This document shows, piece after piece, positions 1-13,332 of a DNA stretch of 64,000 nt. Source of the stretch: Pigmentiphaga kullae (GTDB taxonomy: Bacteria > Pseudomonadota > Gammaproteobacteria > Burkholderiales > Burkholderiaceae_B); NCBI RefSeq assembly GCF_004216695.1, contig NZ_SGXC01000001.1, positions 62,001-126,000 on the forward strand. The letters run 5' to 3'. The position numbers were made by a program, and so were the translations under genes. Every line of letters begins with the position of its first letter. Positions within the stretch are counted from its first letter, which is position 1. The notes under the pieces were generated by a model. That model did not search any database, was not told the DNA's origin, and was given only the letters and a program-made list of their open reading frames with translations.

Positions 1-449
1 CCGGCGCGCGCCTTCTCCATGAAGCTCTTGTAGTCGTTCACGCCCAGGGTGCTGCGCACGGCCACGTACAGGTCGATGTGGCCGACGTCGGCCACGGGCT
101 TGAGTTCCTTGCGCCAGTCGTAGGGCAGGTTGGCGTACAGGAAGGGATTGGCGACCAGCGCCAGCCGGTCGACCATCAGCAGGGTCGAACCGTCGCCCGC
201 CGACTTCGCCACGTTGCCCGCGCCGATGATGGCGTTGGCGCCGGGCTTGTTCTCCACCACGAACACCTTGCCGGTGCGCTTGGCCAGTTGGTTGCCCAGG
301 TCGCGGGCCAGCACGTCGGGTTCGGTTCCAGGCGGGTAGGGAACGACGATGCGGACCTGCTCAGGCCCCCAGGGCGTTTCGGCCCGGACCGGCAGGCACG
401 CCGTGCAGGCCAGCGCAAGAAAGACGCAAAGGGACTTCAGACTTGCCAT
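1..449 (-). CDS. Bug-family periplasmic solute-binding protein (C-terminal half outside window)
   Basis: Receptor of the tripartite tricarboxylate transporter (TctC/Bug) type; about 149 codons are visible and the rest lies beyond the left edge. A signal peptide (about residues 1-23, ending V-R-A) precedes the family opening R-I-V-V-P-Y-P-P-G. E-N-K-P-G-A-N and Y-A-N-L-P-Y follow. The ATG at 449 has GGAGAG four bases upstream. It is the last visible gene of the minus-strand operon starting at 9488, so it probably captures the compound that operon degrades. No TctA/TctB membrane subunit is adjacent. The ligand is unknown. Confidence 0.9.
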   Translation of the reverse strand, partial: MASLKSLCVFLALACTACLPVRAETPWGPEQVRIVVPYPPGTEPDVLARDLGNQLAKRTGKVFVVENKPGANAIIGAGNVAKSAGDGSTLLMVDRLALVANPFLYANLPYDWRKELKPVADVGHIDLYVAVRSTLGVNDYKSFMEKARA

Positions 450-504
450 GATGCTCTCCGATGACGACGGGGCCGGATGCTCCGGCCTCCACGAGGAAGC
501 GGGC

Positions 505-2100
505 CTACCAGCGCCCGATGACGATGTTCATCATGCGTTCGTGCGCATGCGTGCGGGCGGCGACCTGTTCGAAGGTCTCGGTGCAGCGGCGCTGGCGGCG
601 CCAGGCCCAGTCGCACAGCGCGTCGCCCATGCGGCGCAGGACCGGCGCGGCCCAGGCCTCTTCGGCCAGGTCGCGCAATTCGCCGGGGTCCTCCCGCAGA
701 TCGAACAGCTGCGGGCGCAGGCCTTGCCAATACAAGAACTTGTAGCGGCCGTCCGCCAGCATCATGCCGTTGCACTCGGTCACCCCGCGGTCCAGGAACA
801 GCCGCGCCTCGCGATAGGCATAGTCCAGGAAGCCGACGGCGAACTCCCTTGGGGGTCCGCCCGCCTGGCCGCGCACCCAGGGCAGCAGCGACCGCCCCTC
901 GACGCGATGCGCGGGCACGTCCAGGCCCAGCGCGTCCAAAATGGTGGGCACCACGTCCACGCACTCGGCCGTCTCGGCCACGGCCCGGCCGCGACGCGCA
1001 TCGGCGGCGGACGACGGGTCGTAGACGATCAGCGGCACGCGCACCGCCCCTTCGAAGAAATACTCCTTCTCTCCCAGCCAGTGGTCGCCTTGCAGGTCGC
1101 CGTGGTCGGAACAGAAGACAATCAGCGTGTCGCGCAAGCGGCCCGCGCGCTCCAGGTGATCGAGCAGGCGGCCGACGTGGTCGTCGATCTGCTTGACCAG
1201 CCCCATATAGACGGGCCGCACGGCGCGCCAGACCTCGTCCCGCGCGAACGACAGGGATTCCTCGTGGCGCTGGTAGGCGCCGTGCACCGGATGGGGACGC
1301 TCGCGCTCGGCCTGGCCGCGCACGGGCGCGGCGGCATCCTGCGCCGAGTACATGTCGTGGTAGGGCGCGGGCGCCTTGTAGGGCCAGTGCGGCTTGATGT
1401 AGGACAGGTGCAGCACCCACGGCTGCTCGCCCTGGTCCTGGATGAAATCGATCGCCCGGTCGGTCAGGTAGGCGGTTTCCGAGTCTCGCTCGGCCACCCG
1501 CGCCGGCAGACCCGCGTTGCGCAGCAGCCAGCCCGTGGCGAAACTGCCGTCCGGGCCGGTGCTGCCGATCACGTCGCGTTCCCAGGGCCGGTCGCGGTCG
1601 TAGCCGCGCTCGATCAGGTAGCGGCGATAACCGCTGCCCGCGTCCATCTCGAAATGGCCGTCATAGCGTTCCAGCACCTTGAAGCCGCCTTCCATCAGCC
1701 GCTCGCCGGCCGCGCCATCGGCCGACAGGCCGCGCGCGGCCAGCCCCCGCCGGTCCGGCACGAAATGGGTCTTGCCCAGCAGCCAGCAGTCGCGGCCCGC
1801 CTCGGCCAGGTAGTCGCCCAGGCTCCATTCGTCCGCCGGCATGGGCACGCGGTTCCAGGTCACACGATGCGAACCCGGATAACGGCCGGTGTAGTACGAA
1901 GTGCGCGACGGCCCGCACACCGCGGAGCTGACGTAGGCGCGCTCGAAGCGCGCGCCCATCGCGGCCAGGCGGTCGATGTTGGGCGTACGCAGCGCGCCGC
2001 CCCCGCCGTAGCAGGACAAGGCATCGGCCCGCAACTGGTCGCACATGATGAACAGCACGTTGCGGGCGGCATGGGTCGGAATGGCGTTCGGCGCGTTCAT
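505..2100 (-). CDS. Sulfatase-superfamily hydrolase (arylsulfatase / phosphonate monoester hydrolase type)
   Basis: 531-residue cytoplasmic esterase of the alkaline phosphatase superfamily. The modification signature C-x-P-x-R is present as Cys62-G-P-S-Arg66, so Cys62 should become formylglycine. Asp21 in the N-terminal strand, Lys110, His238 and Asp332-His-Gly fit the metal and substrate ligands. The Y-I-K-P-H-x-P-Y segment resembles rhizobial phosphonate monoester hydrolases more than secreted arylsulfatases, and no signal peptide is seen. The ATG at 2100 overlaps the stop of the upstream hydroxylase (ATGA), which fixes the start. The likely role is removing a sulfate or phospho/phosphonate ester from an aromatic substrate of this operon. 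No sulfatase-modifying enzyme lies in the window. Confidence 0.85.
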   Translation of the reverse strand: MNAPNAIPTHAARNVLFIMCDQLRADALSCYGGGGALRTPNIDRLAAMGARFERAYVSSAVCGPSRTSYYTGRYPGSHRVTWNRVPMPADEWSLGDYLAEAGRDCWLLGKTHFVPDRRGLAARGLSADGAAGERLMEGGFKVLERYDGHFEMDAGSGYRRYLIERGYDRDRPWERDVIGSTGPDGSFATGWLLRNAGLPARVAERDSETAYLTDRAIDFIQDQGEQPWVLHLSYIKPHWPYKAPAPYHDMYSAQDAAAPVRGQAERERPHPVHGAYQRHEESLSFARDEVWRAVRPVYMGLVKQIDDHVGRLLDHLERAGRLRDTLIVFCSDHGDLQGDHWLGEKEYFFEGAVRVPLIVYDPSSAADARRGRAVAETAECVDVVPTILDALGLDVPAHRVEGRSLLPWVRGQAGGPPREFAVGFLDYAYREARLFLDRGVTECNGMMLADGRYKFLYWQGLRPQLFDLREDPGELRDLAEEAWAAPVLRRMGDALCDWAWRRQRRCTETFEQVAARTHAHERMMNIVIGRW

Positions 2101-3752
2101 GCGGCGGCCTCCAGGACGGGCGTGGCGGCTGCCGGCTCGGCCGGAGCCGGCAGGAACTCGGCAACGAAGCGCGCCAGCGCGCCGTGCATGTCGGCGTGAC
2201 CGCCGGCCGCCGCCACGTAGCGGTCGGGACGCAGCAGCACCCAGTCGGCGCCCGCCGCCGCGAACCATCGATGCAGCGCGTTCTCGGTATCCTCGAGCAG
2301 GCTCATGCCGGCCGGCGCCGGCGGACGCGCCCCTGGCGCGGGACCGCTGCGGGGCAGCGCGACGACGACCAGCCGGCAGCCCAGGCGCCGCAACCCCTCG
2401 CCCAATCCGGGCGGCAGCGGCGCTGCCGGCACGCGCACCAGCAGCGCGAAGCCCGGGCCGAGCGCATCGTCCAGCTTCTGGAAATCGCCGCCGTCCTTCT
2501 CCACCAGCGGCTGGATGAACATGCGGCCGACACGGTCGTCGCGCGCCGCCTGGCCGCTGTCCTGCACGACCCCGGCGCGATACCGGGGCATGGGCTTGAA
2601 CTTCATCTGCAGGACGTAGTCGCGCACCGCCGGTATGCCGCGGATCGCGCCGAAGAACGCGTCGCGCAGCCGGGCCAGCCAGGGGTTGCGCAGCGACAGC
2701 ACCGCGCCGAAGCGGTCGGCCAGGTCTATCATCGCCTTGGCATGCGCGTGCCGCTCGTCATGGTAAGACTGCAACGCCTCCGGACGCAGGCGGCCGCCGA
2801 CGATCCACGCGATCTTCCAGGCAAGGTTGCAGGCATCGCGCAGGCCGGCGTTGAGCCCCTGCCCGATCCAGGGCGGCGTGAGGTGGGCGGCGTCGCCGGC
2901 CAGACAGACGCGTCCGACCACGAAGGATCCGGCGATCCGCGAATGATGGGTGTAGACGCGCGCGCGGATCACGTTCAACGCCTCCGGATCCGGCACGTGC
3001 GGCGCCAGCAGTTCGCGCACCTTGGCCGGGTCGAGGATCTGGCTTTCGTCCTCGCCGTCGAACAGCATGAACTCCCAGCGGCGCAGGCCGTACGGCAGCT
3101 TCAGGCAGACATAGGGGCGCGCCGGCTCGCAATGCAGCGCAGTATAGGGCGCGTCCAGGGGATCCCGGTCGCACTCGATCACCACCCATTTGTGGGCGTG
3201 GGTCTGGCCGCCGAAAGGCAGCTTGAGCAATCCTTCGCGCACGGTGCTGCGGCCGCCGTCGGCTGCCAGCAGGTAGGCGGCGCGTATCTGGCGTTCGGTG
3301 CCGTCGGCGCGGCGCAGCGTGGCGGTCACACCGCCTTCGTCCTGCTCCAGCGCCACCAGTTCCACGCCCAGTTCCAGCGCGACGTGAGGAAAGCGCGCCA
3401 GGCCGGCGCGCAGGGTCTGTTCGGCCAGGGGCTGCGAGAACAGGTTGCGCCGGTACCAGCCGAACTCGCGCGTGGCGGGCAGGATCTCGGCGAAGCATTG
3501 CTTGCGGGCGCCGTACATGCGCATGGGCACGTTCTGGATCATGTCGCGCAGCATGGCCTCGGCCAGGCCCGCGGCCTGGAAGGTGCGCATGGCTTCGTCG
3601 TCCAGGCCCACCGCGCGCGGATACTCCAGGATCGCCGGGCTGCGGTCGACCAGCAGCGTGCCGACCCCGTAGGTACCCAGCAGATTGGCCAGCGTCGCGC
3701 CCACCGGACCGGCGCCGACGACCAGCACGGGCACATCGCAGGATTTGTTCAT
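2097..3752 (-). CDS. mhpA: FAD-dependent aromatic hydroxylase, MhpA-like
   Basis: 551-residue single-component flavoprotein monooxygenase of the 3-(3-hydroxyphenyl)propionate hydroxylase family; E. coli MhpA is 554 residues. It hydroxylates phenolic rings using NAD(P)H and O2. The FAD-binding G-A-G-P-V-G lies at 13-18, the DG motif at 164-169, and G-D-A-A-H with the following P-P-W-I-G-Q-G at about 286-299. The M-K-F-K-P-M-P-x-Y segment near residue 380 matches MhpA closely. The C-terminal third is the thioredoxin-like domain, and its last codons overlap the sulfatase start. It should make a catechol-type product; the actual substrate is not shown. Confidence 0.88.
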   Translation of the reverse strand: MNKSCDVPVLVVGAGPVGATLANLLGTYGVGTLLVDRSPAILEYPRAVGLDDEAMRTFQAAGLAEAMLRDMIQNVPMRMYGARKQCFAEILPATREFGWYRRNLFSQPLAEQTLRAGLARFPHVALELGVELVALEQDEGGVTATLRRADGTERQIRAAYLLAADGGRSTVREGLLKLPFGGQTHAHKWVVIECDRDPLDAPYTALHCEPARPYVCLKLPYGLRRWEFMLFDGEDESQILDPAKVRELLAPHVPDPEALNVIRARVYTHHSRIAGSFVVGRVCLAGDAAHLTPPWIGQGLNAGLRDACNLAWKIAWIVGGRLRPEALQSYHDERHAHAKAMIDLADRFGAVLSLRNPWLARLRDAFFGAIRGIPAVRDYVLQMKFKPMPRYRAGVVQDSGQAARDDRVGRMFIQPLVEKDGGDFQKLDDALGPGFALLVRVPAAPLPPGLGEGLRRLGCRLVVVALPRSGPAPGARPPAPAGMSLLEDTENALHRWFAAAGADWVLLRPDRYVAAAGGHADMHGALARFVAEFLPAPAEPAAATPVLEAAA

Positions 3753-3771
3753 CCCTGATCTCCGATGTGCC

Positions 3772-4068
3772 TCAGGCCTGCGCGAGGATGCGGCTTTCCT
3801 GCCGCACCAGCAGGTGCCGGACCGACTTGCGGAAGGCAGCGAACTCGGCGTCCGCGGCCAATACCGCGCGGCGGCTGGCGCGTTCGTCCAGCGATTCGTA
3901 GGCCCACAGGAAGACGAGCTGGTTGAGTTCGCCGGTCTCGGATTGGTACAGGCCCGCCAGGTTGCCCAGGATGCGCGTTTGCAGCGCCTGGGCGGATTGC
4001 CTGTAGATGCGCAGGTATTCCGCGCCGCCGCCCGGCACCAGCGTGTAGGTCCGCATTTCCACCATCAT
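3772..4068 (-). CDS. NIPSNAP-family protein
   Basis: 98-residue protein with the NIPSNAP ferredoxin-like fold: opening V-E-M-R-T-Y-T-L, a G-N-L-x-G-L-Y turn, and the N-Q-L-V-F-L-W-A-Y-E-S-L-D-E-R block at about 49-63. These proteins are small dimeric alpha/beta barrels often found beside aromatic-catabolism genes; their reaction is unknown. Two ATG codons are adjacent (4068 and 4065), with GAGGAG about nine bases upstream. That ribosome site overlaps the end of the hydrolase gene at 4082, indicating translational coupling. A longer upstream reading into the hydrolase gene is low-complexity and was discarded. Confidence 0.85.
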   Translation of the reverse strand: MMVEMRTYTLVPGGGAEYLRIYRQSAQALQTRILGNLAGLYQSETGELNQLVFLWAYESLDERASRRAVLAADAEFAAFRKSVRHLLVRQESRILAQA

Positions 4069-4081
4069 GATGTGTATCTCC

Positions 4082-4930
4082 TCAGGGCGCGGGGGCCGCG
4101 CCGAGAAATTCCGCGACCGCCCGCGCGACCCGCTCGGGCTGGTCATCGTGGACGTAGTGGCCCGCATCGGGGATCTCGCGCCAGGCGATCGCCGGATTGC
4201 GCGCCGCCATGGCCTGGGCGGTCGCCACGCCCAGGTAGTCCGACCGGCCGCCGCGCAAGACCAGCGTGGGGCAGCGCAGCGCCTGGACCGGCGGCCACAG
4301 GTCGACCACCCGTGCCGGGTCCGGATCGAGCCGGGCGGCTTTGATGCCCGCATGGTCGTAGCGCCAGCGCAGGCGGCCGCCGTGCGGCTCCAGCATGTGG
4401 CGCAGCCGGGCCGCGATGGCCTCGGGGGTCACGGTCGGCCGGATCTCGCGCATGAAGGCCTCGGCCGCGCTCCAGTCGGCGAAGGACTCGGGCGTGCGGG
4501 ACAGCTCCGCGCGTATGCGCCGGGCACCATCGCTATCGTCGAAGGCTCCCGGTCCGGCATCCTCCACGACCAGCTTGCGCACCCGGTCGGGATGCGCCGC
4601 CGCGTAGACGATGGCGTTGATGCCGCCCATGGAGTGCCCGAGCAGATCGAAGCGGGACAGCCCCAGTTGCTCGACCACCGCCCGCACGTCCTGGACATAG
4701 GCATCGGTGTAGTAGTTGCGACCCGGGTCCCAGTCGCTCTGCCCGCGGCCGCGATGATCCAGCGCCAGCACCCGGTAGCCCGGCTGCAACGCGCCGGCCA
4801 ATCCCTCGAAGGTGTCGGCGAAGCTGCGTATGCCGTGCAGCATTAGCACCGGCCAGCCGCCGGCATCGCCCCAGTCCGCGACGTGCAGGTTCAGGCCCGC
4901 GCAACGGACGGTATGGTCGCGGCGGTCCAT
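4082..4930 (-). CDS. Alpha/beta-fold hydrolase
   Basis: 282-residue alpha/beta hydrolase. The oxyanion strand L-H-G-I is at 31-34. The nucleophile elbow G-H-S-M-G-G puts Ser100 in place, with Asp231 (G-R-S-D) and His258 (D-A-G-H-Y) completing the triad. The D-H-R-G-R-G-Q-S-D turn at 59-67 is typical of esterases and C-C hydrolases. It starts one base after the stop of the AA_synth gene. In this operon it could open an ester, a lactone or a ring-cleavage product after the hydroxylase and the VOC enzyme; which of these is not decided by sequence. Confidence 0.85.
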   Translation of the reverse strand: MDRRDHTVRCAGLNLHVADWGDAGGWPVLMLHGIRSFADTFEGLAGALQPGYRVLALDHRGRGQSDWDPGRNYYTDAYVQDVRAVVEQLGLSRFDLLGHSMGGINAIVYAAAHPDRVRKLVVEDAGPGAFDDSDGARRIRAELSRTPESFADWSAAEAFMREIRPTVTPEAIAARLRHMLEPHGGRLRWRYDHAGIKAARLDPDPARVVDLWPPVQALRCPTLVLRGGRSDYLGVATAQAMAARNPAIAWREIPDAGHYVHDDQPERVARAVAEFLGAAPAP

Positions 4931-4931
4931 G

Positions 4932-5531
4932 TCAATTCAGCCCGTCGCCGACGATTTCGCTCGCCTTCAAGCCGCCCAGGCGGGCATGCAGCCGGCCGCG
5001 CGTGGCGAAGGCAAAGGCGATCAGCACTTCGTCGCGGTTGGGCGCATCGTTGAACATGGCCGACACCGTGTCGTAGTGAGAGCGCACGTACAGCGCGTCC
5101 TTGTGAGCCAGCGGAATGTCGATGACCGTGCCCGGGCCGCCACGCTTGCCGGTGGACGGCACCCACGACTGGCCGCCACCCACCGCATCGCGCACGGGGT
5201 TGGCGAACACCGTGGTCAGGAGCGCGTTGCCGTGCTCGTACTCGCCGTCCGCTCCCACCAGGCAGGCCTTGCCGTAGCTCTCGATGGGCGTGCCGGCGGC
5301 GGCATCCCGGATGCGGCGGCCGAACTCCGCGCCCAGCAGGTTCGAGGGTTCGATGTAAGCGCCCAGGTTGTCCTCGTGGCGGCCGGCGTAGGGGTTGTGC
5401 AGCACCGCGCCCACGACGATCTTGCGCAGCGGGTCGCCGTCGGCGGGCATGCCCGATTCGGTGGCCAGCGTGTCCTCGATCTGGAGGTACCACTTGCGGA
5501 TATGGTAGGGGCCGAAGTTGGGGGATTTCAT
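4932..5531 (-). CDS. AA_synth (DUF1185) family protein
   Basis: 199-residue protein of the 'amino acid synthesis' family PF06684 (DUF1185). Recognisable blocks are I-R-K-W-Y-L-Q-I-E-D-T near the N terminus, V-L-H-N-P-Y-A-G-R at about 43-51, and G-K-A-C-L-V-G-A-D-G-E-Y-E-H-G-N-A near 86-102. No biochemical role is established for the family despite its name. It recurs in Burkholderiales catabolic operons beside ligases and oxygenases. It sits between the VOC enzyme (27-base gap) and the hydrolase (one-base gap), clearly within the operon. There is no signal peptide, so it should be cytoplasmic. Confidence 0.85.
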   Translation of the reverse strand: MKSPNFGPYHIRKWYLQIEDTLATESGMPADGDPLRKIVVGAVLHNPYAGRHEDNLGAYIEPSNLLGAEFGRRIRDAAAGTPIESYGKACLVGADGEYEHGNALLTTVFANPVRDAVGGGQSWVPSTGKRGGPGTVIDIPLAHKDALYVRSHYDTVSAMFNDAPNRDEVLIAFAFATRGRLHARLGGLKASEIVGDGLN

Positions 5532-5557
5532 GGTGGGTTCCGTGATTCGTTAAGGGT

Positions 5558-6028
5558 TCAGAGCGGCTGCAGGTCGATGGGGTCGCTGGGCGCGTGATAC
5601 CGGTGCAGGATGCGCTTGCCCTCTTCGTCGTCGTGCACCGTGTGGCAGAAGAACTCCAGGCGATGGCCGTCGGGATCGTGGAAATAGACGCCGTAGCCGA
5701 CCTTGTGGTCGGTGGTCTTGACCACCTCGACGCCCTTGCGCAGCAGCATCCCGTACAGGCGGCGCAACTCGTCGACGTCGCCGTCTATCTCCAGGCCGTA
5801 GTGCTGCATGTTGATCTGGCCGCGCGACAGCGGCGAACCGTCGGCGGACTCGGCGCGGATCAGCGCAATGTCGTGGTGCTTGACGCCGAACGAGAGGAAC
5901 ACCCACTTCTCGCCGCGCGCGGTCTCGGTCATGCCCAGCACCTCCTCGTACCAGGGGCCCGACTTGAACGGGTCGGCCACGAACAGGGAAAGATGCGTGC
6001 GCGTGATCCGGGGCTTGATGTCCTGCAT
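5558..6028 (-). CDS. VOC-family enzyme, possible extradiol ring-cleavage dioxygenase
   Basis: 156-residue vicinal-oxygen-chelate protein with two beta-alpha-beta-beta-beta units. His12 (T-H-L-S-L-F), His76 (Q-H-Y-G-L-E-I) and Glu125 (H-R-L-E-F-F) sit where the 2-His-1-Glu metal triad of class I extradiol dioxygenases lies. The D-P-D-G-H turn precedes the last ligand. It has the length of a single-domain glyoxalase or small dioxygenase, so isomerase activity is also possible. Start ATG at 6028 has GAGGAG upstream. As the only ring-cleavage candidate in this operon, it may open the catechol made by the MhpA-like hydroxylase. Confidence 0.8.
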   Translation of the reverse strand: MQDIKPRITRTHLSLFVADPFKSGPWYEEVLGMTETARGEKWVFLSFGVKHHDIALIRAESADGSPLSRGQINMQHYGLEIDGDVDELRRLYGMLLRKGVEVVKTTDHKVGYGVYFHDPDGHRLEFFCHTVHDDEEGKRILHRYHAPSDPIDLQPL

Positions 6029-6039
6029 GGCGTGTCTCC

Positions 6040-7083
6040 TCAGGCAATGGACTGCGGATGCGCGTGCACCGGCGCCACGTGGGGCGTCCACGCGACCGAG
6101 GTGATCTCGCTGAAATCGCGCCAGTCCTTGAACCAGCTGCGCCCGCCATCCATGGAGCGGAACAGGTGGCCGTACTTGGTGCCGGCCAGCACGAAGCGCG
6201 GATCGGCCGCGTGCGTGCCGAAGGCCCAGAAGGTCGAATTGGGCGCGGCATGCAGCAGCGCCCGCTCCCAGGTCGCGCCCCGGTCGGCCGAGCGGTAGAT
6301 GTGGCTGCGCGTGCCGGGCGTGCCGTCGCCGATGGCCAGCAGCAAGGCGCTGCCGTCGGCCAGGGGCTGGGCGGTGCGGGTGTAGTACATGCCGTCGAAG
6401 CGCAGGCGCGAGGGTTCGCCCACCCACGTCCGCCCGTCGTCGGTGCTGGCATAGACGGTGTTGACCGACAGCACCAGCGTCTTCCTGGGCTGCCCGTCCG
6501 CGGGCGCGAGAATGGTGACGCCGTGGATGTCGGGATTGGCGATCGCGCCTTCGCGCGCGCCCTCCTGGTCGACGCGCGTCCAGGTGTCGCCGCGGTCGCC
6601 GCTGCGCCAGGCGCCGCCCTCTTCCACGCCGAACCAGACCTCGCCCGCCACCGCCGGGTCCACGCAGATGGCCAGGATGCGCGGCCGGTTCACGCCCCGG
6701 CAGAACTCCGGGATCTCCGGCGGCAGCCGGGTCCAGCTCGCGCCGCCGTCCAGCGACCGGAACATGGCGGCGCGCGAGGGCGCGCCGGTGCCGGCGTACA
6801 TCACGGACGGATCGCGCGGATCGATGGCCAGGGCCCAGACCGTCATGCCGTCCGCAGGCGAGGCGATGCGCGAGAAATGCGCGCCGCCGTCGGTGCTCAG
6901 GCAGATGCCGCAATCGGCCCCGGCGAACACGCGGCGCGGATCGGCCGGGTCCACCGCCAGGCAGCGGACCACGCCGTCGAACTCGATGGCTTCCTTCAGG
7001 CCCAGCCGGTGCCAGCTCGCGCCGTCGTCGACGCTGCGCAGGATGCCCTGTCCGGCCGTTCCCACCAATAGCGTGCCTTGCAT
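6040..7083 (-). CDS. Asp-box (BNR) beta-propeller protein
   Basis: 347-residue protein built from at least seven Asp-box turns (S-x-D-x-G-x-[ST/H]-[WF]): SVDDGASW, STDGGAHF, SLDGGASW, SGDRGDTW, STDDGRTW, SADRGATW and SMDGGRSW. This predicts a sialidase/VPS10-like beta-propeller. No catalytic sialidase Arg triad could be assigned and no signal peptide is present, so a glycosidase role is doubtful. The ATG at 7083 with GGGAG about seven bases upstream is preferred over a TTG at 7101 that overlaps the SDR stop. A cytoplasmic propeller within a catabolic operon is unusual. Confidence 0.82.
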   Translation of the reverse strand: MQGTLLVGTAGQGILRSVDDGASWHRLGLKEAIEFDGVVRCLAVDPADPRRVFAGADCGICLSTDGGAHFSRIASPADGMTVWALAIDPRDPSVMYAGTGAPSRAAMFRSLDGGASWTRLPPEIPEFCRGVNRPRILAICVDPAVAGEVWFGVEEGGAWRSGDRGDTWTRVDQEGAREGAIANPDIHGVTILAPADGQPRKTLVLSVNTVYASTDDGRTWVGEPSRLRFDGMYYTRTAQPLADGSALLLAIGDGTPGTRSHIYRSADRGATWERALLHAAPNSTFWAFGTHAADPRFVLAGTKYGHLFRSMDGGRSWFKDWRDFSEITSVAWTPHVAPVHAHPQSIA

Positions 7084-7097
7084 GGTTCTTCTCCCGC

Positions 7098-7892
7098 TCA
7101 AAGGAAAATGCCGCGTGTGATGCCGCCGTCCACGCCTATCGACTCGCCGGTGATGGCGGCCGCCCGGGGCGAGGCCAGGAACAGGATGGTGTCGGCGATC
7201 TCGGCGGGCGTCAGCGTGCGCCGGATGGGCGTGGCGCGGATGTAGTTGGCCTCGACCTCGTCCACGCTCAGTCCCTGCTTGGCGGCTTCCTTCTCGTACA
7301 GCTCGCGGATATGGGGCGTGTCGACCACGCCGGGATGGATCACGTTGACCGTGATGCCATGGGGCCCGAGCTGGTCCGACAGGGTCTTAGTCATATGGCA
7401 GACGGCCACGTTGCGCATCCCCGAGAGCTGCTTGCTGCCGCGCCCGGTCAGGCCGCCGATGTTGACGATGCGGCCATAGCCGCCGGCCTTCATGTGCCGC
7501 GCCGCTTCCTTGGCGCAACGCATGTAGCCCACGACCTTGATGTTGATGTCCTGCAGCAGTCCTTCGGGATCGGCCAGCTCGATCTCGCTGCGCACCAGCC
7601 CGCCCGGATGCGCGGCGCCATTGACCAGGATATCCAGACGGCCGAAGTGCCCGGCCACGCGATCGATCATCGCCGCCACCTGCGCGGTGTCGGACACGTC
7701 GGCCGCCACCGGCAGCACCTCCACGCCATGCGCGGCGCGGATCTCGCGGGCTGCCGCATCGAGCTGGGCCTGGTTGCGCGAGACGATCGCCACGTTCACG
7801 CCTTCGGCCGCCAGGGCCTCGGCGGTCGCCCGTCCTATGCCCAGGCTGCCGCCCGTCACGACCGCCGCGCGGCCTTTCAGTTCTAGGTCCAT
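7098..7892 (-). CDS. Short-chain dehydrogenase/reductase-like protein lacking the catalytic Ser and Tyr
   Basis: 264-residue Rossmann protein of the SDR superfamily. The nucleotide motif T-G-G-S-L-G-I-G is at 13-20 and N-G-A-A (for N-N-A-G) at 91-94. The usual catalytic residues are replaced: N-I-G-G (144-147) stands where N-I-S-S is expected, and Cys165-H-M-T-Lys169 where Y-x-x-x-K is expected. The C terminus keeps the G-E-S-I-G-V-D-G-G substrate loop. It may bind NAD(P) without classical carbonyl reduction, or use another acid. ATG at 7892 has GGAG five bases upstream; ATG 7895 is an alternative. It follows the ThDP enzyme gene. Confidence 0.85.
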   Translation of the reverse strand: MDLELKGRAAVVTGGSLGIGRATAEALAAEGVNVAIVSRNQAQLDAAAREIRAAHGVEVLPVAADVSDTAQVAAMIDRVAGHFGRLDILVNGAAHPGGLVRSEIELADPEGLLQDINIKVVGYMRCAKEAARHMKAGGYGRIVNIGGLTGRGSKQLSGMRNVAVCHMTKTLSDQLGPHGITVNVIHPGVVDTPHIRELYEKEAAKQGLSVDEVEANYIRATPIRRTLTPAEIADTILFLASPRAAAITGESIGVDGGITRGIFL

Positions 7893-7940
7893 CATTTCTC
7901 CAATCAATCGTTATCGGCGCGGCCCCCAGGGCCGGCGGCA

Positions 7941-9488
7941 CTACAGCTGCATTTCGATCAGGGTCGGCCCGGAGCGCGCGCAGGCGGCGGCGAAGGCCTC
8001 GGCCAGTTCCTCGGCCGTCTCGACCCGGCTGGACGGCACGCCGTAGCCGTCGGCCAGCCGCGTCCAGTCGATGCGCGGTCGGTCCAGGCTGGTCAGCGCC
8101 TCGGCCTGCGGGCCGGGCTGCTCGCCGCGCGCCAGTTCCTTGCGCAGGATTCCGTATTGGTGATTGGCGGCGATCAGCACGACCACCGGCAGGTTCTCGT
8201 GCGCCAGCGACCAGAGCGTCTGCACCGTGTACTGCGTGCTGCCGTCCGACAGCAGCGCCACCACCCGGCGCCCGGGGCTGGCGATCGCCGCGCCCAGCGC
8301 CACCGGCAGCCCCTGTCCGATCGCGCCGCCGGTGTTGGTCAACGCGGTGTGGCGGGCCGAGGCCGCCGAGGCGGCGTAGAACGGATAGCCGCAGGTGCCG
8401 CCCTCCACCGAGACGATGGCGTCCTCGGGCAGCAGGCGCGCCACCGTGGCCGAGATCGCGGCGGGAGTCAGCCGGCCCTGCTGCACGGGCAGGGGCGCCG
8501 GCGCGGCGTCTTGCCAGCCGGGCCCGTCCAGCATTCCGGCCAGCGCCTCCAGGTAGTCCGCCACCGGTTCGCCCGGCGCCCCCAGCGCCAGCAGCCGGCC
8601 GGGCTCCACCATCCGGCTGGGATGGCCTTCGTAGCCGAAATAGGTCACGGGGGGCAGCGCGCCGGCCAGCACCACGACGTCCGCTTCGTCCAGCACCGCG
8701 CGGGCGGGTTCGGGGAAATACGGCAGGCGGTCGAAATCGGGCAGGCCGCCGCCGCGTTCGGCGCGCGACGGGAAGGTCTCGGCGTAGGCCGACGCGCCCA
8801 GCGCAGCGCACAGCCGGGCGGCGGCGCGCTGCCCGCGGGCGCCCAGGCCGCTGGCCGGCCCTCCTCCGCCCAGCAGGAACAGGACCTTGCGCGCGGACTT
8901 CAGCCGCGCGGCGCAGGCCGCCAGGTCGGGGGCGGGCGCCGGCTCCTCGCCGGTATCGGCGCCGGCGGCTTCATCGCTCCCGCCGGCCTCGCCCACCTGG
9001 AAATCGGCCGGGAAGATCACGGTCGCGCCCTGCCCGCCGCGCGCCAGGCTGGCGCGCACGGCTTCGCGGCCGGCCCACGCGGCATCCCCGGCGCTGGCCA
9101 CCCGATGCACCCAGCCCGACACCGGCCGCGCCAGCGACTCGATATCGGAAGTCAGCGGCGCATCGAACGGCAGATGCCAGCTCATGTGGTCGCCGATCAG
9201 GTTGACGATGGGGGTATGGGCGCGCCGGGCGTTGTGCAGGTTGGCGATCCCGTTGGCGAAGCCGGGCCCCAGGTGCAGCAGCGTGGCCGCCGGCGCGCCA
9301 CGCATGCGGCCATAGCCGTCGGCGGCGCCGGTGCAGACGTTCTCCTGCAGGCCCAGCACGCAGCGCATGCCGGGCACGGCGTCGAACGCCCGCACGACGT
9401 CCAGTTCCGTCGTGCCGGGATTGGCGAAACACACCTCCACGCCTTCCACCTGCAAGGCCGCCAGCAAGGCTTGCGCTCCAGTCGTCAT
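7941..9488 (-). CDS. Thiamine-diphosphate enzyme, acetolactate synthase/benzoylformate decarboxylase-like
   Basis: 515-residue three-domain ThDP enzyme. Glu49 in L-Q-E-N-x-x-x-G-A-A-D-G-Y activates the cofactor. The C-terminal ThDP-Mg site reads S-D-G-S (414-417) instead of G-D-G-S, keeping the metal-binding Asp. Loss of the FAD-type middle-domain signatures and the short length favour a 2-keto-acid decarboxylase or lyase over true acetolactate synthase. It is first in the minus-strand operon and has a strong AGGAG just upstream of ATG 9488. It may decarboxylate a 2-oxo side chain or product of the pathway. The substrate is not evident. Confidence 0.87.
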   Translation of the reverse strand: MTTGAQALLAALQVEGVEVCFANPGTTELDVVRAFDAVPGMRCVLGLQENVCTGAADGYGRMRGAPAATLLHLGPGFANGIANLHNARRAHTPIVNLIGDHMSWHLPFDAPLTSDIESLARPVSGWVHRVASAGDAAWAGREAVRASLARGGQGATVIFPADFQVGEAGGSDEAAGADTGEEPAPAPDLAACAARLKSARKVLFLLGGGGPASGLGARGQRAAARLCAALGASAYAETFPSRAERGGGLPDFDRLPYFPEPARAVLDEADVVVLAGALPPVTYFGYEGHPSRMVEPGRLLALGAPGEPVADYLEALAGMLDGPGWQDAAPAPLPVQQGRLTPAAISATVARLLPEDAIVSVEGGTCGYPFYAASAASARHTALTNTGGAIGQGLPVALGAAIASPGRRVVALLSDGSTQYTVQTLWSLAHENLPVVVLIAANHQYGILRKELARGEQPGPQAEALTSLDRPRIDWTRLADGYGVPSSRVETAEELAEAFAAACARSGPTLIEMQL

Positions 9489-9507: not shown

Positions 9508-9536
9508 GTATTATCGCTATTCGATAAAAATGTAAA
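9508..9536 (-). promoter_or_regulatory. Sigma70-like promoter with embedded palindromic operator
   Basis: Read on the minus strand, TTTACA (9536-9531), a 17-base spacer and TAATAC (9513-9508) form a good -35/-10 pair about 20 bases ahead of the ThDP enzyme ATG. Inside it lies the inverted repeat TTATCG-N5-CGATAA (9511-9527), covering the spacer and -10. A repressor bound there would block the promoter. The divergent IclR-family gene at 9689 is the obvious candidate regulator. Confidence 0.6.
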
Positions 9537-9688: not shown

Positions 9689-10438
9689 ATGAACAGCCTT
9701 CGCCGCATGCTCGACGTCCTCGACCTCTTCAGGCCCGACCAGCCTGCCGTCGATGTCGACGTGATCTGCAACCAGCTCGGCTACGCGCCCGCCACGGCCT
9801 ATCGCTACATCCGGGAGCTCTGCGCGGTGGGCCTCCTGGTGCGGCTTCCGGGGGGATATGCGCTGGGGCCGCGCGTGATCCAGCTCGATCTGCAGATGCG
9901 CGAATACGACCCGATGCTTACCGAGAGCCGGGACCTGATCGAGGCCTTGGGGGAAGAAACGGGCCTGAACGTGCTGCTGAGCGAGCTGTACGGCAGCACG
10001 GTCATCACCGTGCACCACCACCCGGGCCGGGACGCCGAGCCGCTGCGCTTCGGCCGCGGCCGCCCCATGGCCCTGCTGCGCAGCGCCACGGCGCGCGTGG
10101 TACTGGCCAGCCTGCCGCCTCGCCAGTTGCGCCGCCTGTACGACGAACACGCGCAGGAAGCGGACATGCAGCGGCTGGGCGCAAGCTGGAAGGACTTCTC
10201 GCGCGCCATGCTGGAGATACGTCGGGCGGGATATTGCCTGTCCGTCGGCGACCTCGACCCGGACAAGGCCGGGATCGCGGCCCCCATCTTCGACGAACGC
10301 AAGCGGATACTGGGCAGCATCACCGCCGTGGGATCGGTGGACCGCTTCCAGGCATTCAACGAGGAATACCTGGCCAGGCGGCTGCGCGAGGCCGCCGAGG
10401 AAATCACGCGCAGGATCTCGCAGGGCGCGCAGGCCTGA
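9689..10438 (+). CDS. IclR-family transcriptional regulator
   Basis: 249-residue regulator: an N-terminal winged helix (about 1-65, with L-G-Y-A-P-A-T-A-Y-R-Y-I-R-E-L as recognition helix) and a C-terminal IclR effector domain (F-G-R-G-R-P near 132, A-G-Y-C-L-S-V-G-D-L-D near 180). It is divergent from the ten-gene operon starting at 9488 and has a TTATCG/CGATAA palindrome in that promoter, so it likely controls the operon in response to a pathway acid. The ATG at 9689 begins the conserved M-N-S-L-R-R-M-L-D-V-L-D-L-F. A TTG 45 bases upstream would add a proline-rich stretch and was not chosen. Confidence 0.9.
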   Translation: MNSLRRMLDVLDLFRPDQPAVDVDVICNQLGYAPATAYRYIRELCAVGLLVRLPGGYALGPRVIQLDLQMREYDPMLTESRDLIEALGEETGLNVLLSELYGSTVITVHHHPGRDAEPLRFGRGRPMALLRSATARVVLASLPPRQLRRLYDEHAQEADMQRLGASWKDFSRAMLEIRRAGYCLSVGDLDPDKAGIAAPIFDERKRILGSITAVGSVDRFQAFNEEYLARRLREAAEEITRRISQGAQA

Positions 10439-10456: not shown

Positions 10457-11464
10457 TCATTCCAGCCGGATGTTCGCGTCGCGGATCAGCTTGCCCAGGC
10501 GCGCCGTCTCGGCCTCGACTCCCGCGTTCACCTGCTCGGGCGTGCCGGGCGCGATCACCAGCCCGCGCGCCGCGAAGGTCGAGACGAAACCTGGATCGGC
10601 CTGTGCCCGCGCGACCGCGGCGTTGATGCCACGGATCACCTGCGGCGGCGTCCTGGCGGGAGCGAACAGGGTGAAATGGGTGGGGATCAGCAGATCGCCG
10701 GGCGCGCCGGCCTCGGCCAGCGTCGGCACGTCGGGCATCAGCGGGGAACGCCTGGCGTTGCCCACGACCAGCCCGCGCAGCCGGCCCGACCGGATGTGTT
10801 CGAGCACGGTCTCGGGCCCCGTCACCACACAGGGCACGCCCCCGCCCACCACGGCGGCCGCCGCCGGCACCATGCCCTTGTACGGCACGTCGGTGATCTG
10901 CACGCCGTAGTGGCGTTCGATCAGTTCCAGGCTCAGATGGTGCACGCTGCCCTGGCCGCCCGTGGCAACCATCAGCGCGCCCGGATGCTTGCGCGCGTGG
11001 TCGATCATCTCACTCCAGGTCTTGAACGGCGCGTCGGCGCGGCAGACGACCGCCAGATCGACGCTGGCGACATCGGACACGCCGGTCAGGTCCCGGGCCG
11101 CGTATGGCAGCTTGGCATAGAGCACCGGGTTGACCGACAGCGTCAGCCGGTCGACCAGCAGCAAGGTGTTGCCGGTGGCCGCAGCCTTGGCCACGGCGTC
11201 GCTGCCGACGATGGCATTGGCGCCGGGCTTGTTCTCGACGACGACGGTCTTGTCCGTCGCGCCGCTCAACCGCTCGGCCAGGCCGCGCGCCAGCACGTCG
11301 GGGGCGCTGCCCGGCGTATAGGGCACGACGATGGAAGCCGTCTGCGCCGGCCATGTCTGGGCCTGCGCGCCGGATGCGGCAAGCAGCAGGACGCCGGCCA
11401 CGGCAAGCAGGTGGCGGCGCAGCGGGGACGAGGAAGCGGGTGCTGCCGTGAAAACCTGGTTCAT
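10457..11464 (-). CDS. Bug-family periplasmic solute-binding protein
   Basis: 335-residue TctC-like receptor with a long signal peptide (about 1-36; Arg16-Arg17 then a hydrophobic core ending A-Q-A-Q). The mature start has S-I-V-V-P-Y-T-P-G, and V-E-N-K-P-G-A-N follows. It shares P-G-A-N-A-I-[IV]-G with the truncated paralogue at the left edge, suggesting related ligands. CAGGAG lies upstream of ATG 11464. It follows the first CocE-type hydrolase gene by 71 bases and is probably the last gene of the operon starting at 16682. It ends convergently with the IclR gene (18-base gap). Confidence 0.9.
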   Translation of the reverse strand: MNQVFTAAPASSSPLRRHLLAVAGVLLLAASGAQAQTWPAQTASIVVPYTPGSAPDVLARGLAERLSGATDKTVVVENKPGANAIVGSDAVAKAAATGNTLLLVDRLTLSVNPVLYAKLPYAARDLTGVSDVASVDLAVVCRADAPFKTWSEMIDHARKHPGALMVATGGQGSVHHLSLELIERHYGVQITDVPYKGMVPAAAAVVGGGVPCVVTGPETVLEHIRSGRLRGLVVGNARRSPLMPDVPTLAEAGAPGDLLIPTHFTLFAPARTPPQVIRGINAAVARAQADPGFVSTFAARGLVIAPGTPEQVNAGVEAETARLGKLIRDANIRLE

Positions 11465-11535
11465 CCAATTCTCCTGGGATACGCGTTGCTGGCCATGCAC
11501 CGCCGGTGCGAGGCATGGCGCGGGGGAACTACGTT

Positions 11536-13332
11536 TCAGTCGATGACGGGAAGCTGCAGATAGGCCTGGTATTTCCCGCCGGTGTGCAGGACATGGCGGC
11601 CCGCGTTGCTGGGCGCCGTGACACCCTTCAGCGCGTCGCCAGCCACGGTCAGCCGCAGCTCCTGGCCCGCGCGCCACACCATGCCCGTCGGCGCGATGGC
11701 GATGTCCAGCGGCACGACCTGGCCGGCCCGCAGGCGCTCAGGCTTGCGGAAGGCATGGACCGGCATGAAGTCCTTGGACCGGCCGGCATCGAGCGCGCGC
11801 ATCGACGCCCGCAGCCGCCCCCCCGTTTCCTTGTATCCCTCGGCGGTCTCCAGGACTTTCCCGTCGGCCCCGGTCTTCTGCACCGTGACGAAGAAGTCCC
11901 CGTCGTCGGCCCCCGCCACCTCGACCCACAAGCGCAGCTTCAGGTATCCGATCAGGCGCGTGTCGCGGTCGAACCGATGGACGAACACGGCCGTCCCGGT
12001 CCTGGCGTCATAACTCGCCGACGAGGCCGCGCCGACCGGCCGGGGCGACAGCGTGCCCGTTGCCGCATCCAGGTAGGCCTTCCGGTATCGCGTATCGGGC
12101 AGCGGCCAGTCGCTCGCGGGCACGTGCCGCTGATTCCTGCCGCCGGGGTCGAGCACCGTCATCCGGACCCGGGGGGTTCGCTCCCAGCCGTTGTCCAGCC
12201 CTTTCAGGTAGCGGTCCAGGAAGCGGCGGTAGTCCTCCACGTTCTCCGGCGTGTACTGGTCGTTCCACAACCCCTTTTCCGTGATGCGCAGCCACTTGTC
12301 GCGCGACGCCACCCGATGGAACCCGTCCAGTTCGGCGGCGGCGATCTCCAGGCCGTAGCTGCCGACCAGGTACATCGGGATCTCGATCCGGGACATGTCG
12401 GCGATCTTGTCCTCCCAGTAGGCGTTCATGAGCGGATGCCGCTGCGCCGTGACGGAAGGCTCCTCGTACAGATTCGATCCGCGCATGCTCCTGAGCAGAA
12501 AGGTATTGAGTCGCGTGTTCGGGATCCCGCCCTTCATCAGTCGGTCGCGGTACAGATCCGAGATGTGGACCCCGATCGGGGCGATGGCCACCAGGTGCGG
12601 CGGCCGCAGCGCGGCAATCTGGTACTGCACCATCCCCAGCCACGAGCTGCCATGCATCGCGACCTTGCCGTTGCTCCAGGGCTGCCCGGCCGCCCACTCT
12701 ATGGCCTCGTAGCCGTCGGCCGCGTTCACCCGGCCGAAGGACTGCATGTTCCCTTCCGACATGTCGACCCCGCGCGGATCGACGTTCACGACCGTATAGC
12801 CATGGCAGGACCAGTAGCCGGGATCCGGCGTTTCGAACGCCGCCAGGCCGGAAATCCAGGACGGATCCAGCATCCCCTTGGGATAGACCCAGGCGGGGTC
12901 CTGGGGCACGGATTTCGTGTACGGCCCCCATGCCATGATCGTGGGCAGCCTGTCCTGGCCGGCGGGACGGAACACGTCGGCATAAATCTTCACGCCGTCG
13001 CGCAAGGTGATGGCGACGTCCTGGTCCATCTCGATGTCGCAGGCCAGCGGCAGCGTGGAAGCAAAGAGACGCGTTCCCTTGGCGTAGATGATCTTCTTCG
13101 GATCGAACCCGTGATACTTCCCGTAGCAGAGCCCCGACGCCCCGGACGCGGCGGGCTGGCAGAAGCCTTCGCCGGTTCTCAGCGACGCGCGCTGCGTGAA
13201 CGTCACGTCCCATGCCTGGGGATACGCGGCCGGCAGCTCGGGCCTGCCGCTGCCCGGCGCGGCGTGCGCGGCGACGGCCGCCGCGCCGGCGAGCCCCGCC
13301 GCCAGGACCATGAAAGATCGCTTGGAATGCAT
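11536..13332 (-). CDS. CocE/NonD-family secreted hydrolase, copy 1
   Basis: 598-residue serine hydrolase of the X-Pro dipeptidyl-peptidase (S15)/cocaine-esterase family. A signal peptide (about 1-25, ending A-H-A) predicts periplasmic location. The N-terminal alpha/beta-hydrolase domain includes R-D-G-V-K-I-Y-A-D-V-F-R-P at 111-123, D-P-R-G at 185-188, and the nucleophile elbow G-S-S-W-L-G with Ser230. The C-terminal jelly-roll domain (about 390-598) carries G-x-x-x-R-A-S and A-G-Q-E-L-R-L-T. It is a tandem paralogue of the next gene, with long blocks of identity. GAGAGGGG precedes ATG 13332. It likely cleaves an ester or amide before uptake. Confidence 0.9.
   Translation of the reverse strand: MHSKRSFMVLAAGLAGAAAVAAHAAPGSGRPELPAAYPQAWDVTFTQRASLRTGEGFCQPAASGASGLCYGKYHGFDPKKIIYAKGTRLFASTLPLACDIEMDQDVAITLRDGVKIYADVFRPAGQDRLPTIMAWGPYTKSVPQDPAWVYPKGMLDPSWISGLAAFETPDPGYWSCHGYTVVNVDPRGVDMSEGNMQSFGRVNAADGYEAIEWAAGQPWSNGKVAMHGSSWLGMVQYQIAALRPPHLVAIAPIGVHISDLYRDRLMKGGIPNTRLNTFLLRSMRGSNLYEEPSVTAQRHPLMNAYWEDKIADMSRIEIPMYLVGSYGLEIAAAELDGFHRVASRDKWLRITEKGLWNDQYTPENVEDYRRFLDRYLKGLDNGWERTPRVRMTVLDPGGRNQRHVPASDWPLPDTRYRKAYLDAATGTLSPRPVGAASSASYDARTGTAVFVHRFDRDTRLIGYLKLRLWVEVAGADDGDFFVTVQKTGADGKVLETAEGYKETGGRLRASMRALDAGRSKDFMPVHAFRKPERLRAGQVVPLDIAIAPTGMVWRAGQELRLTVAGDALKGVTAPSNAGRHVLHTGGKYQAYLQLPVID

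Follow-up and report, generated by a model that had tools for sequence, protein, structure and literature searches.

At one end of a 64-kb stretch of the Pigmentiphaga kullae genome (G000:C1:62001-126000; "the window" means this whole stretch), we found a run of minus-strand genes that reads as a catabolic operon under IclR control, acting on a phenolic compound whose ring would be opened and then digested. Judging from sequence, we put the probability of this reading at roughly 0.55. From position 9488 downward, the run encodes a thiamine diphosphate (ThDP) enzyme, an SDR-fold protein, a beta-propeller, a VOC protein, an AA_synth protein, an alpha/beta hydrolase, a NIPSNAP protein, an FAD hydroxylase (FMO), a sulfatase, and a Bug binding protein. 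A preliminary description had named these ten genes, and both their common strand and their family assignments are borne out by profile models (TPP enzyme, SDR, BNR propeller, Glyoxalase/VOC, AA_synth, Abhydrolase, NIPSNAP, FAD_binding_3, Sulfatase, and TctC/Bug, with IclR for the divergent regulator gene at 9689..10438 on the plus strand).

The ten-gene operon proposed earlier is a real run, but the window edge cuts it. The Bug/TctC gene (1..449) is complete in the neighboring DNA beyond the edge (L009:13472-14449), where an eleventh gene, for an aldehyde dehydrogenase (ALDH) similar to succinate-semialdehyde dehydrogenase (SSADH), lies 3′ of it (L009:12018-13475). All 11 genes are on the minus strand with gaps of at most 55 nucleotides (nt); in order from the ThDP enzyme to ALDH, the gaps are 45, 14, 11, 26, 1, 13, 19, −4, 55, and −4 nt. 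The overlapping arrangement described before holds for two of the 10 junctions (FMO/sulfatase and Bug/ALDH, 4 nt each), and the other eight are gapped by 1-55 nt. A convergent LysR gene follows the run (L009:11102-12031).

The gene set is kept together in many genomes. We took the best 80 of 178 candidate loci from a propeller-profile search, including Pigmentiphaga, Achromobacter, Pusillimonas, Hydrogenophaga, Variovorax, Pseudacidovorax, Paracidovorax, Herbaspirillum, Burkholderia, Pandoraea, Roseateles, Reyranella, Streptomyces, and Nonomuraea; some of the strains recur in the family-level set described below. Neighbors were counted within 9.5 kb, on the same strand (either strand for IclR) and above set identities, a gene being called lacking where it was undetected at these thresholds. 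AA_synth accompanies the propeller in 79 loci, the hydrolase in 76, VOC in 67, FMO and SDR in 66 each, ThDP in 63, NIPSNAP in 50, IclR in 44, ALDH (55% identity or more) in 43, Bug in 32, and the sulfatase in 13. Leaving NIPSNAP, sulfatase, and ALDH aside, the order ThDP-SDR-propeller-VOC-AA_synth-hydrolase-FMO is found in 61 of the 80 loci, across Burkholderiales and Actinobacteria. The preliminary description had offered the operon as a candidate undescribed system and had staked this on conservation of gene order; because the order is conserved, the proposal of an undescribed, conserved catabolic operon is supported. We found no paper on this gene set in the open-access PMC literature, and it is a real operon type that has apparently gone undescribed. 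On the propeller tree, a 100/100 branch separates the 13 Actinobacteria from the remaining rows. Among named organisms, the closest relatives are Pigmentiphaga and isolate SAGV5, not Bordetella.

Because these loci were picked by their propeller, the linkage of the neighbors is conditioned on it, and anchoring on the VOC gene provides an independent check. Among 268 genomes of the family, VOC has matches at ≤1e-12 in 21; 19 (our own included) are orthologs at 66%-100% identity, and the other two are at 28%-29%. All 19 ortholog-bearing genomes also have a propeller match, which in G086 is at 49% identity and ∼8 kb away. The propeller itself has a match at E ≤ 1e-20 in 47 of the 268 genomes, 22 of which (our own included) are 68%-100% identical. 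We examined regions around 20 of the other 21 close-match genomes, the last (G053) being added with more distant cases, and scored gene content by matches at 1e-8 over half of the query. All 12 genes occur in the order of the window in six loci (L040-L044 and L046). Eight loci (L047-L054) are without NIPSNAP and ALDH, and L055 is without NIPSNAP; L060, on a 13-kb contig, has no visible sulfatase and two ALDH genes upstream. Four loci (L056-L059) have only propeller, AA_synth, and hydrolase, besides Bug-like and once SDR-like genes. L045 is without hydrolase and AA_synth: in this genus relative (G191, at L045 8184-8509), the two genes are gone exactly between NIPSNAP and VOC while the others are kept, which looks like a natural deletion. 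Across the order, VOC matches at ≤1e-25 are found in just two of 399 genomes, one of them our own, so the operon is sporadic.

The ring-opening half of the operon reads as hydroxylase, extradiol dioxygenase, and alpha/beta hydrolase because the VOC protein carries an invariant set of catechol 2,3-dioxygenase residues. The FMO (2097..3752) scores 730 bits with the MhpA-like NCBIfam model NF004831 (cut-off 546) and shares ∼40% identity, with 86% of the query covered, with the MhpA-annotated gene on Escherichia coli K-12 records. The one-domain VOC protein (5558..6028) matches PF00903 at 1.9e-15, over the cut-off, and its residues H12, H51, H52, H76, H108, Y115, and E125 are invariant in 68 of 68 rows. 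(Loci without a clean open reading frame were dropped from the residue-conservation rows, which kept 60 of 63 for ThDP, 60 of 66 for SDR, 78 of 79 for AA_synth, and 39 of 43 for ALDH; the other sets are full.) In an alignment of a 25-row VOC profile with the catalytic domain of 1mpy, the partners of H52, H108, Y115, and E125 are, in turn, H199, the His of PTRHG, the Tyr of IYF, and the Glu of NRNE, which we take to be the second-sphere His, His, and Tyr plus the Glu ligand of catechol 2,3-dioxygenase; H12 aligns only with the other domain of 1mpy. The RecA matches that topped this profile comparison were rejected as sums of weak repeats of ∼8 bits each. From these residues we infer that the VOC protein is an extradiol ring-cleaving dioxygenase.

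The same residues mean that the route is not wholly unmatched, as the preliminary description had it: That statement stands for the lower half, while the ring-opening half appears to be of a known kind, resembling mhp, hcd, and fde/ifc. The mhp system of E. coli shares with the operon an MhpA-like hydroxylase and a hydrolase. MhpB is a LigB-type dioxygenase, whereas the enzyme here is of the VOC type, and no families of the MhpD, MhpE, or MhpF type are found among the operon proteins (the search covered these proteins and not the rest of the genome). The hcd cluster of Pseudomonas mandelii 7HK4 (7-hydroxycoumarin) has, in the available parts of the reports (PMC6222606, PMC7913881), four kinds of protein with counterparts in the operon, as judged by their descriptions: an FAD hydroxylase (the FMO here), a type I extradiol dioxygenase (the extradiol-type VOC protein), a hydrolase, and the DUF1185 protein HcdD (AA_synth). 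The hcd cluster differs in having an MDR reductase, a cupin, and an FMN reductase, and those parts of the reports mention neither a propeller nor a ThDP enzyme, a sulfatase, or a NIPSNAP protein. They give Hcd protein bands of 62, 31, and 20 kDa and a mass of 31.2 kDa for HcdC (PMC6222606, PMC7913881); by our own elimination HcdB would be the band of ∼20 kDa. In the fde/ifc flavonoid clusters of Herbaspirillum and Variovorax, as far as the accessible sections of the source go, the A-ring is the target of an FAD hydroxylase and a glyoxalase-type enzyme, and an alpha/beta hydrolase gene lies in the cluster, again a likeness judged by description; neither propeller nor AA_synth is named (PMC11069340). 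In Herbaspirillum genomes, VOC and FMO pairs considered as an fde cluster were rejected: L197, L198, and L200 have FMO matches of 23%-24%, and L197 has a MarR gene beside the pair.

What would follow ring cleavage is less familiar. Among the 11 operon proteins there is no hydratase, aldolase, or acylating aldehyde dehydrogenase family; these were searched for in the operon and not in the rest of the genome. The ThDP enzyme (7941..9488) belongs to the benzoylformate-decarboxylase branch: It is over the cut-off of NCBIfam PRK07586, a model named "acetolactate synthase large subunit," its closest solved structure type is benzoylformate decarboxylase (BFDC), and E49 and H72, present in 61 of 61 rows, align with BFDC E47 and H70 (in the numbering that we assume for BFDC, here and below). 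The best models for ALDH are SSADH models, with scores below their cut-offs. The SDR-fold protein (7098..7895) was rightly called atypical: The Tyr of YxxxK is replaced by V in 27 of 61 rows, by C in 26, and by A in eight, while S154, H167, and K170 are invariant. A NIPSNAP protein is encoded at 3772..4068. The AA_synth protein (4932..5531) scores 217.8 bits against PF06684/DUF1185 (cut-off 27), the family of the solved structures 3byq (BB2672) and 2qtp (SPO0826). For these structures, the portion of the source at hand gives no reaction, and a role in amino-acid metabolism was inferred from neighbors (PMC2954203). TgnF, according to the available part of another report, is a DUF1185 homolog that stimulates TgnE, no such effect having been observed for HcdD (PMC7913881); no paper on the tgn pathway itself was found in the open-access PMC literature. 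In CP099606.1 (L151 4762-8582), tandem AA_synth genes come after genes for 6-hydroxynicotinate reductase and UPF0280, neighbors hinting that the family may take part in the catabolism of pyridine rings.

Several observations weigh against ring opening followed by digestion of the product. In the profile alignment, H76 of the VOC protein is gap-offset from H214 of 1mpy; the catechol_2_3 model reaches 32.8 of 320 bits, with FosA-type models scoring higher (also below cut-off); and FosA-type transferases match the VOC profile about as well as 1mpy. Since H76 is not on H214 and the FosA-type proteins score similarly or higher, we regard the extradiol assignment as strong but not final. The alpha/beta hydrolase (4082..4930) has the motif GHSMGG, the motif of meta-cleavage hydrolases being GNSMGG, and among solved structures with a named activity it is best matched by an N-acetylaminomethylene-succinate (AAMS) hydrolase. 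In place of S26 and H281 of BFDC, the ThDP enzyme has T26 and F284 (61 of 61 rows); the aligned 4mpp chain itself shows Tyr at the H281 place. The trio propeller-AA_synth-hydrolase occurs without VOC and FMO in 11 of the 80 loci (and the propeller-AA_synth pair in two). A cluster on a Novosphingobium plasmid, with ALDH, propeller (47%), VOC (42%), AA_synth (68%), hydrolase (52%), ThDP (50%), SDR, and ALDH, has no FMO match at 1e-5, nor has L130; both keep propeller, VOC, AA_synth, ThDP, and SDR. Finally, disruption of the ifc alpha/beta hydrolase gene left daidzein degradation unaffected, in the part of the source available (PMC11069340).

The propeller (6040..7083) has seven blades and seven Asp boxes (S-x-D-x-G-x-x-W/F), and its structure is predicted with a mean pLDDT of 93.3 and a pTM of 0.92. 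Its weak sequence matches are to Asp-box proteins (xyloglucanases, Ycf48, and the sialidase fold), with which it shares the Asp boxes; unlike them, it is encoded in a catabolic operon and has an invariant face of its own. No signal peptide is apparent, by reading of the sequence alone. Counting positions invariant in at least 80 of 81 rows, with strands taken from the predicted model and loop limits and D strands set by hand, we find 40 of 75 invariant in A-strand starts and B-C loops versus one of 43 in A-B loops; the C-D turns, which hold the Asp boxes, have 11 of 50 and the strand cores 37 of 122. A-strand starts and B-C loops share one face of a propeller, and the strong conservation of this single face suggests that the predicted structure is that of an enzyme or a specific binder. 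The invariant face includes R135, R236, H187, D185, E154, Y234, N282, W83, W286, and E326.

In six paralogs of 34%-37% identity, the face residues V39, D57, W83, R135, E154, G156, D185, H187, Y234, T235, R236, P256, G257, N282, W286, G305, F324, and E326 are identical, and others (R40, R104, E155, N208, K303, and Y304 among them) are never identical, so that by its sequence the face reads as a common site plus a subfamily-specific part. Four paralog loci were scanned for some genes: An arylmalonate-decarboxylase-like gene lies in the propeller's run in L063 and L064, and a CMD-family gene lies near the propeller in three of the four (L064, L065, and L067). The paralog in L065 (38%; G000:C4:327207-328163) is in the same genome, beside the CMD-family gene, with a 44% relative of the ThDP enzyme and a NIPSNAP gene nearby. 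Nearby genes in the trio loci L084 and L121 encode a glutathione S-transferase, a PF04199 cyclase-family protein, and Bug, together with a GntR regulator in L084 and a 49% ThDP relative in L121.

Putting these observations together, we can outline a pathway, each step of which is proposed from sequence. In sulfatase-bearing members, an aryl sulfate ester would be removed first. The hydroxylase, given its ∼40% identity to MhpA, would make a catechol; the VOC protein, with its invariant residue set, would open the ring; and the alpha/beta hydrolase would cut the ring-fission product. The ThDP enzyme might then take the resulting 2-oxo acid and the SSADH-like dehydrogenase the semialdehyde, taking the place of the usual hydratase, aldolase, and acylating dehydrogenase. 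AA_synth, NIPSNAP, the SDR that lacks its Tyr, and the propeller could act on the intermediates as isomerases, tautomerases, or hydrolases, and a conserved ring of Arg, His, Glu, Tyr, and Trp on one face of the propeller would bind its ligand. We suggest tentatively, at less than even odds, that the propeller is a new kind of enzyme that, together with AA_synth and the hydrolase, processes an acidic intermediate in the breakdown of aromatics, and that these proteins, with the ThDP and SSADH-like enzymes, replace the lower meta pathway.

The same genes allow other readings. If the VOC protein were a glyoxalase-fold isomerase or transferase, the ring could stay unopened and an aromatic side chain be modified, ThDP enzyme and ALDH turning a 2-oxo acid into an aldehyde and then an acid as in mandelate catabolism. 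The branch of the ThDP enzyme, the ALDH of at least 55% identity in 43 of the 80 loci, the higher scores of FosA-type over catechol dioxygenase models, and the two clusters that keep VOC without an FMO match all fit this. We consider it unlikely nonetheless: The extradiol second-sphere His, His, Tyr set is invariant in every VOC row, the o-hydroxylase of the same operon would make a catechol, and H281 of BFDC is not kept. A heteroaromatic or N-containing ring has also to be considered, FMO and VOC opening a hydroxypyridine-like ring, since AA_synth and such hydrolases recur in pyridine-type pathways (tgn, 6-hydroxynicotinate). The AA_synth pair after the 6-hydroxynicotinate reductase gene, the nearness of the operon hydrolase to AAMS hydrolase, an amidohydrolase gene near the Novosphingobium cluster, and the naming of TgnF as a DUF1185 homolog in the accessible part of PMC7913881 speak for such a substrate; against it, the FMO has its closest relatives among phenylpropionate hydroxylases of the MhpA type, and neither an amidohydrolase nor a molybdopterin hydroxylase family is represented among the operon proteins. 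In our judgment, this reading is quite improbable. In L150, the Novosphingobium cluster is flanked by the amidohydrolase gene and two TonB-dependent receptor genes (L150:14936-18584 and 1069-3282).

The preliminary description had the operon couple the sulfatase (505..2100) to the hydroxylase and the propeller, a version in which the core function would be hydrolysis of a phenolic's sulfate or phosphonate esters, the rest serving that substrate. The sulfatase gene does overlap the FMO gene, the C/S-x-P-S-R signature of type I sulfatases (C62-G-P-S-R) is kept in 14 of 14 rows, and "phosphoric/sulfuric ester hydrolase PehA" ranks first among the NCBIfam models (317 of the 900 bits of its cut-off). 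However, we rejected the sulfatase as operon core, as it is near the propeller in just 13 of 80 loci; given that count and the scatter of its label on the propeller tree (14 rows with the window, three changes needed), we regard it as an accessory add-on in part of the Proteobacteria, and the ester-centered function as very improbable. As to its specificity, the closest solved structures, ahead of the phosphonate monoester hydrolase 2w8s (226 bits) and of 2vqr (244 bits), are 4upl and 4upi (474 and 466 bits), both named "sulfatase family protein" and presumably SpAS2 and SpAS1, a ranking that qualifies the earlier label "sulfatase/phosphonate-ester hydrolase," although the PehA model, far below its cut-off, favors it. 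The genome also encodes a PF03781 protein, in keeping with a Cys-type sulfatase as the operon core; the model is not specific to formylglycine-generating enzyme, and because it also matches in Bacillus subtilis, it does not prove that enzyme. An ester-capped phenolic acid as substrate is a guess. In two distant sulfatase-bearing operons, a second ThDP enzyme is encoded between FMO and sulfatase (L123:5710-7356 and L134:14737-16380); an annotated Burkholderia plasmid carries the gene set without sulfatase, its operon preceded by a TonB-dependent receptor gene.

Control by the divergent regulator is suggested by an operator-like palindrome, TTATC-N7-GATAA, at 9511..9527 in the promoter region. 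It lies across a sigma-70-like promoter match and is the only exact match in the window. A divergent IclR gene of at least 49% identity accompanies 17 of the 63 ThDP-bearing loci; the exact palindrome is upstream in 13 of these 17 versus one of the 46 others (15 of 17 versus two of 46 with one mismatch allowed), against ∼0.015 and 0.01 exact words expected in all from simple block shuffles. These counts are post hoc, the word having been spotted by inspecting part of these very sequences, and related strains do not count as independent. The palindrome goes with the IclR gene. A tighter form occurs at two places in the 6.2-Mb genome; the surroundings of the second site read as a PepSY-like protein and a small open reading frame.

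Related genes stand on both sides of the operon. Past the operon and the LysR gene, another Bug protein, a sulfatase (29%), and a ThDP enzyme are encoded on the same strand (L009:6934-11007, i.e., G000:C1:54934-59007), and past the IclR gene, on the opposite strand, lie a further Bug gene and a gene for an S15/CocE-type hydrolase (10457-13332 of the window). In Herbaspirillum, a chemotaxis receptor gene is directly 3′ of the operon (L098:16492-18108).

If ring opening followed by digestion is the right reading, an operon family of Burkholderiales and Actinobacteria, with reduced forms in Alphaproteobacteria, would degrade aromatic rings by a version of the process that is still undescribed. 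Three families that have no known reaction here, AA_synth, NIPSNAP, and the propeller, would then gain functions that can be tested. The conserved trio of propeller, AA_synth, and hydrolase, which is also found alone, would make the function of DUF1185 directly approachable.

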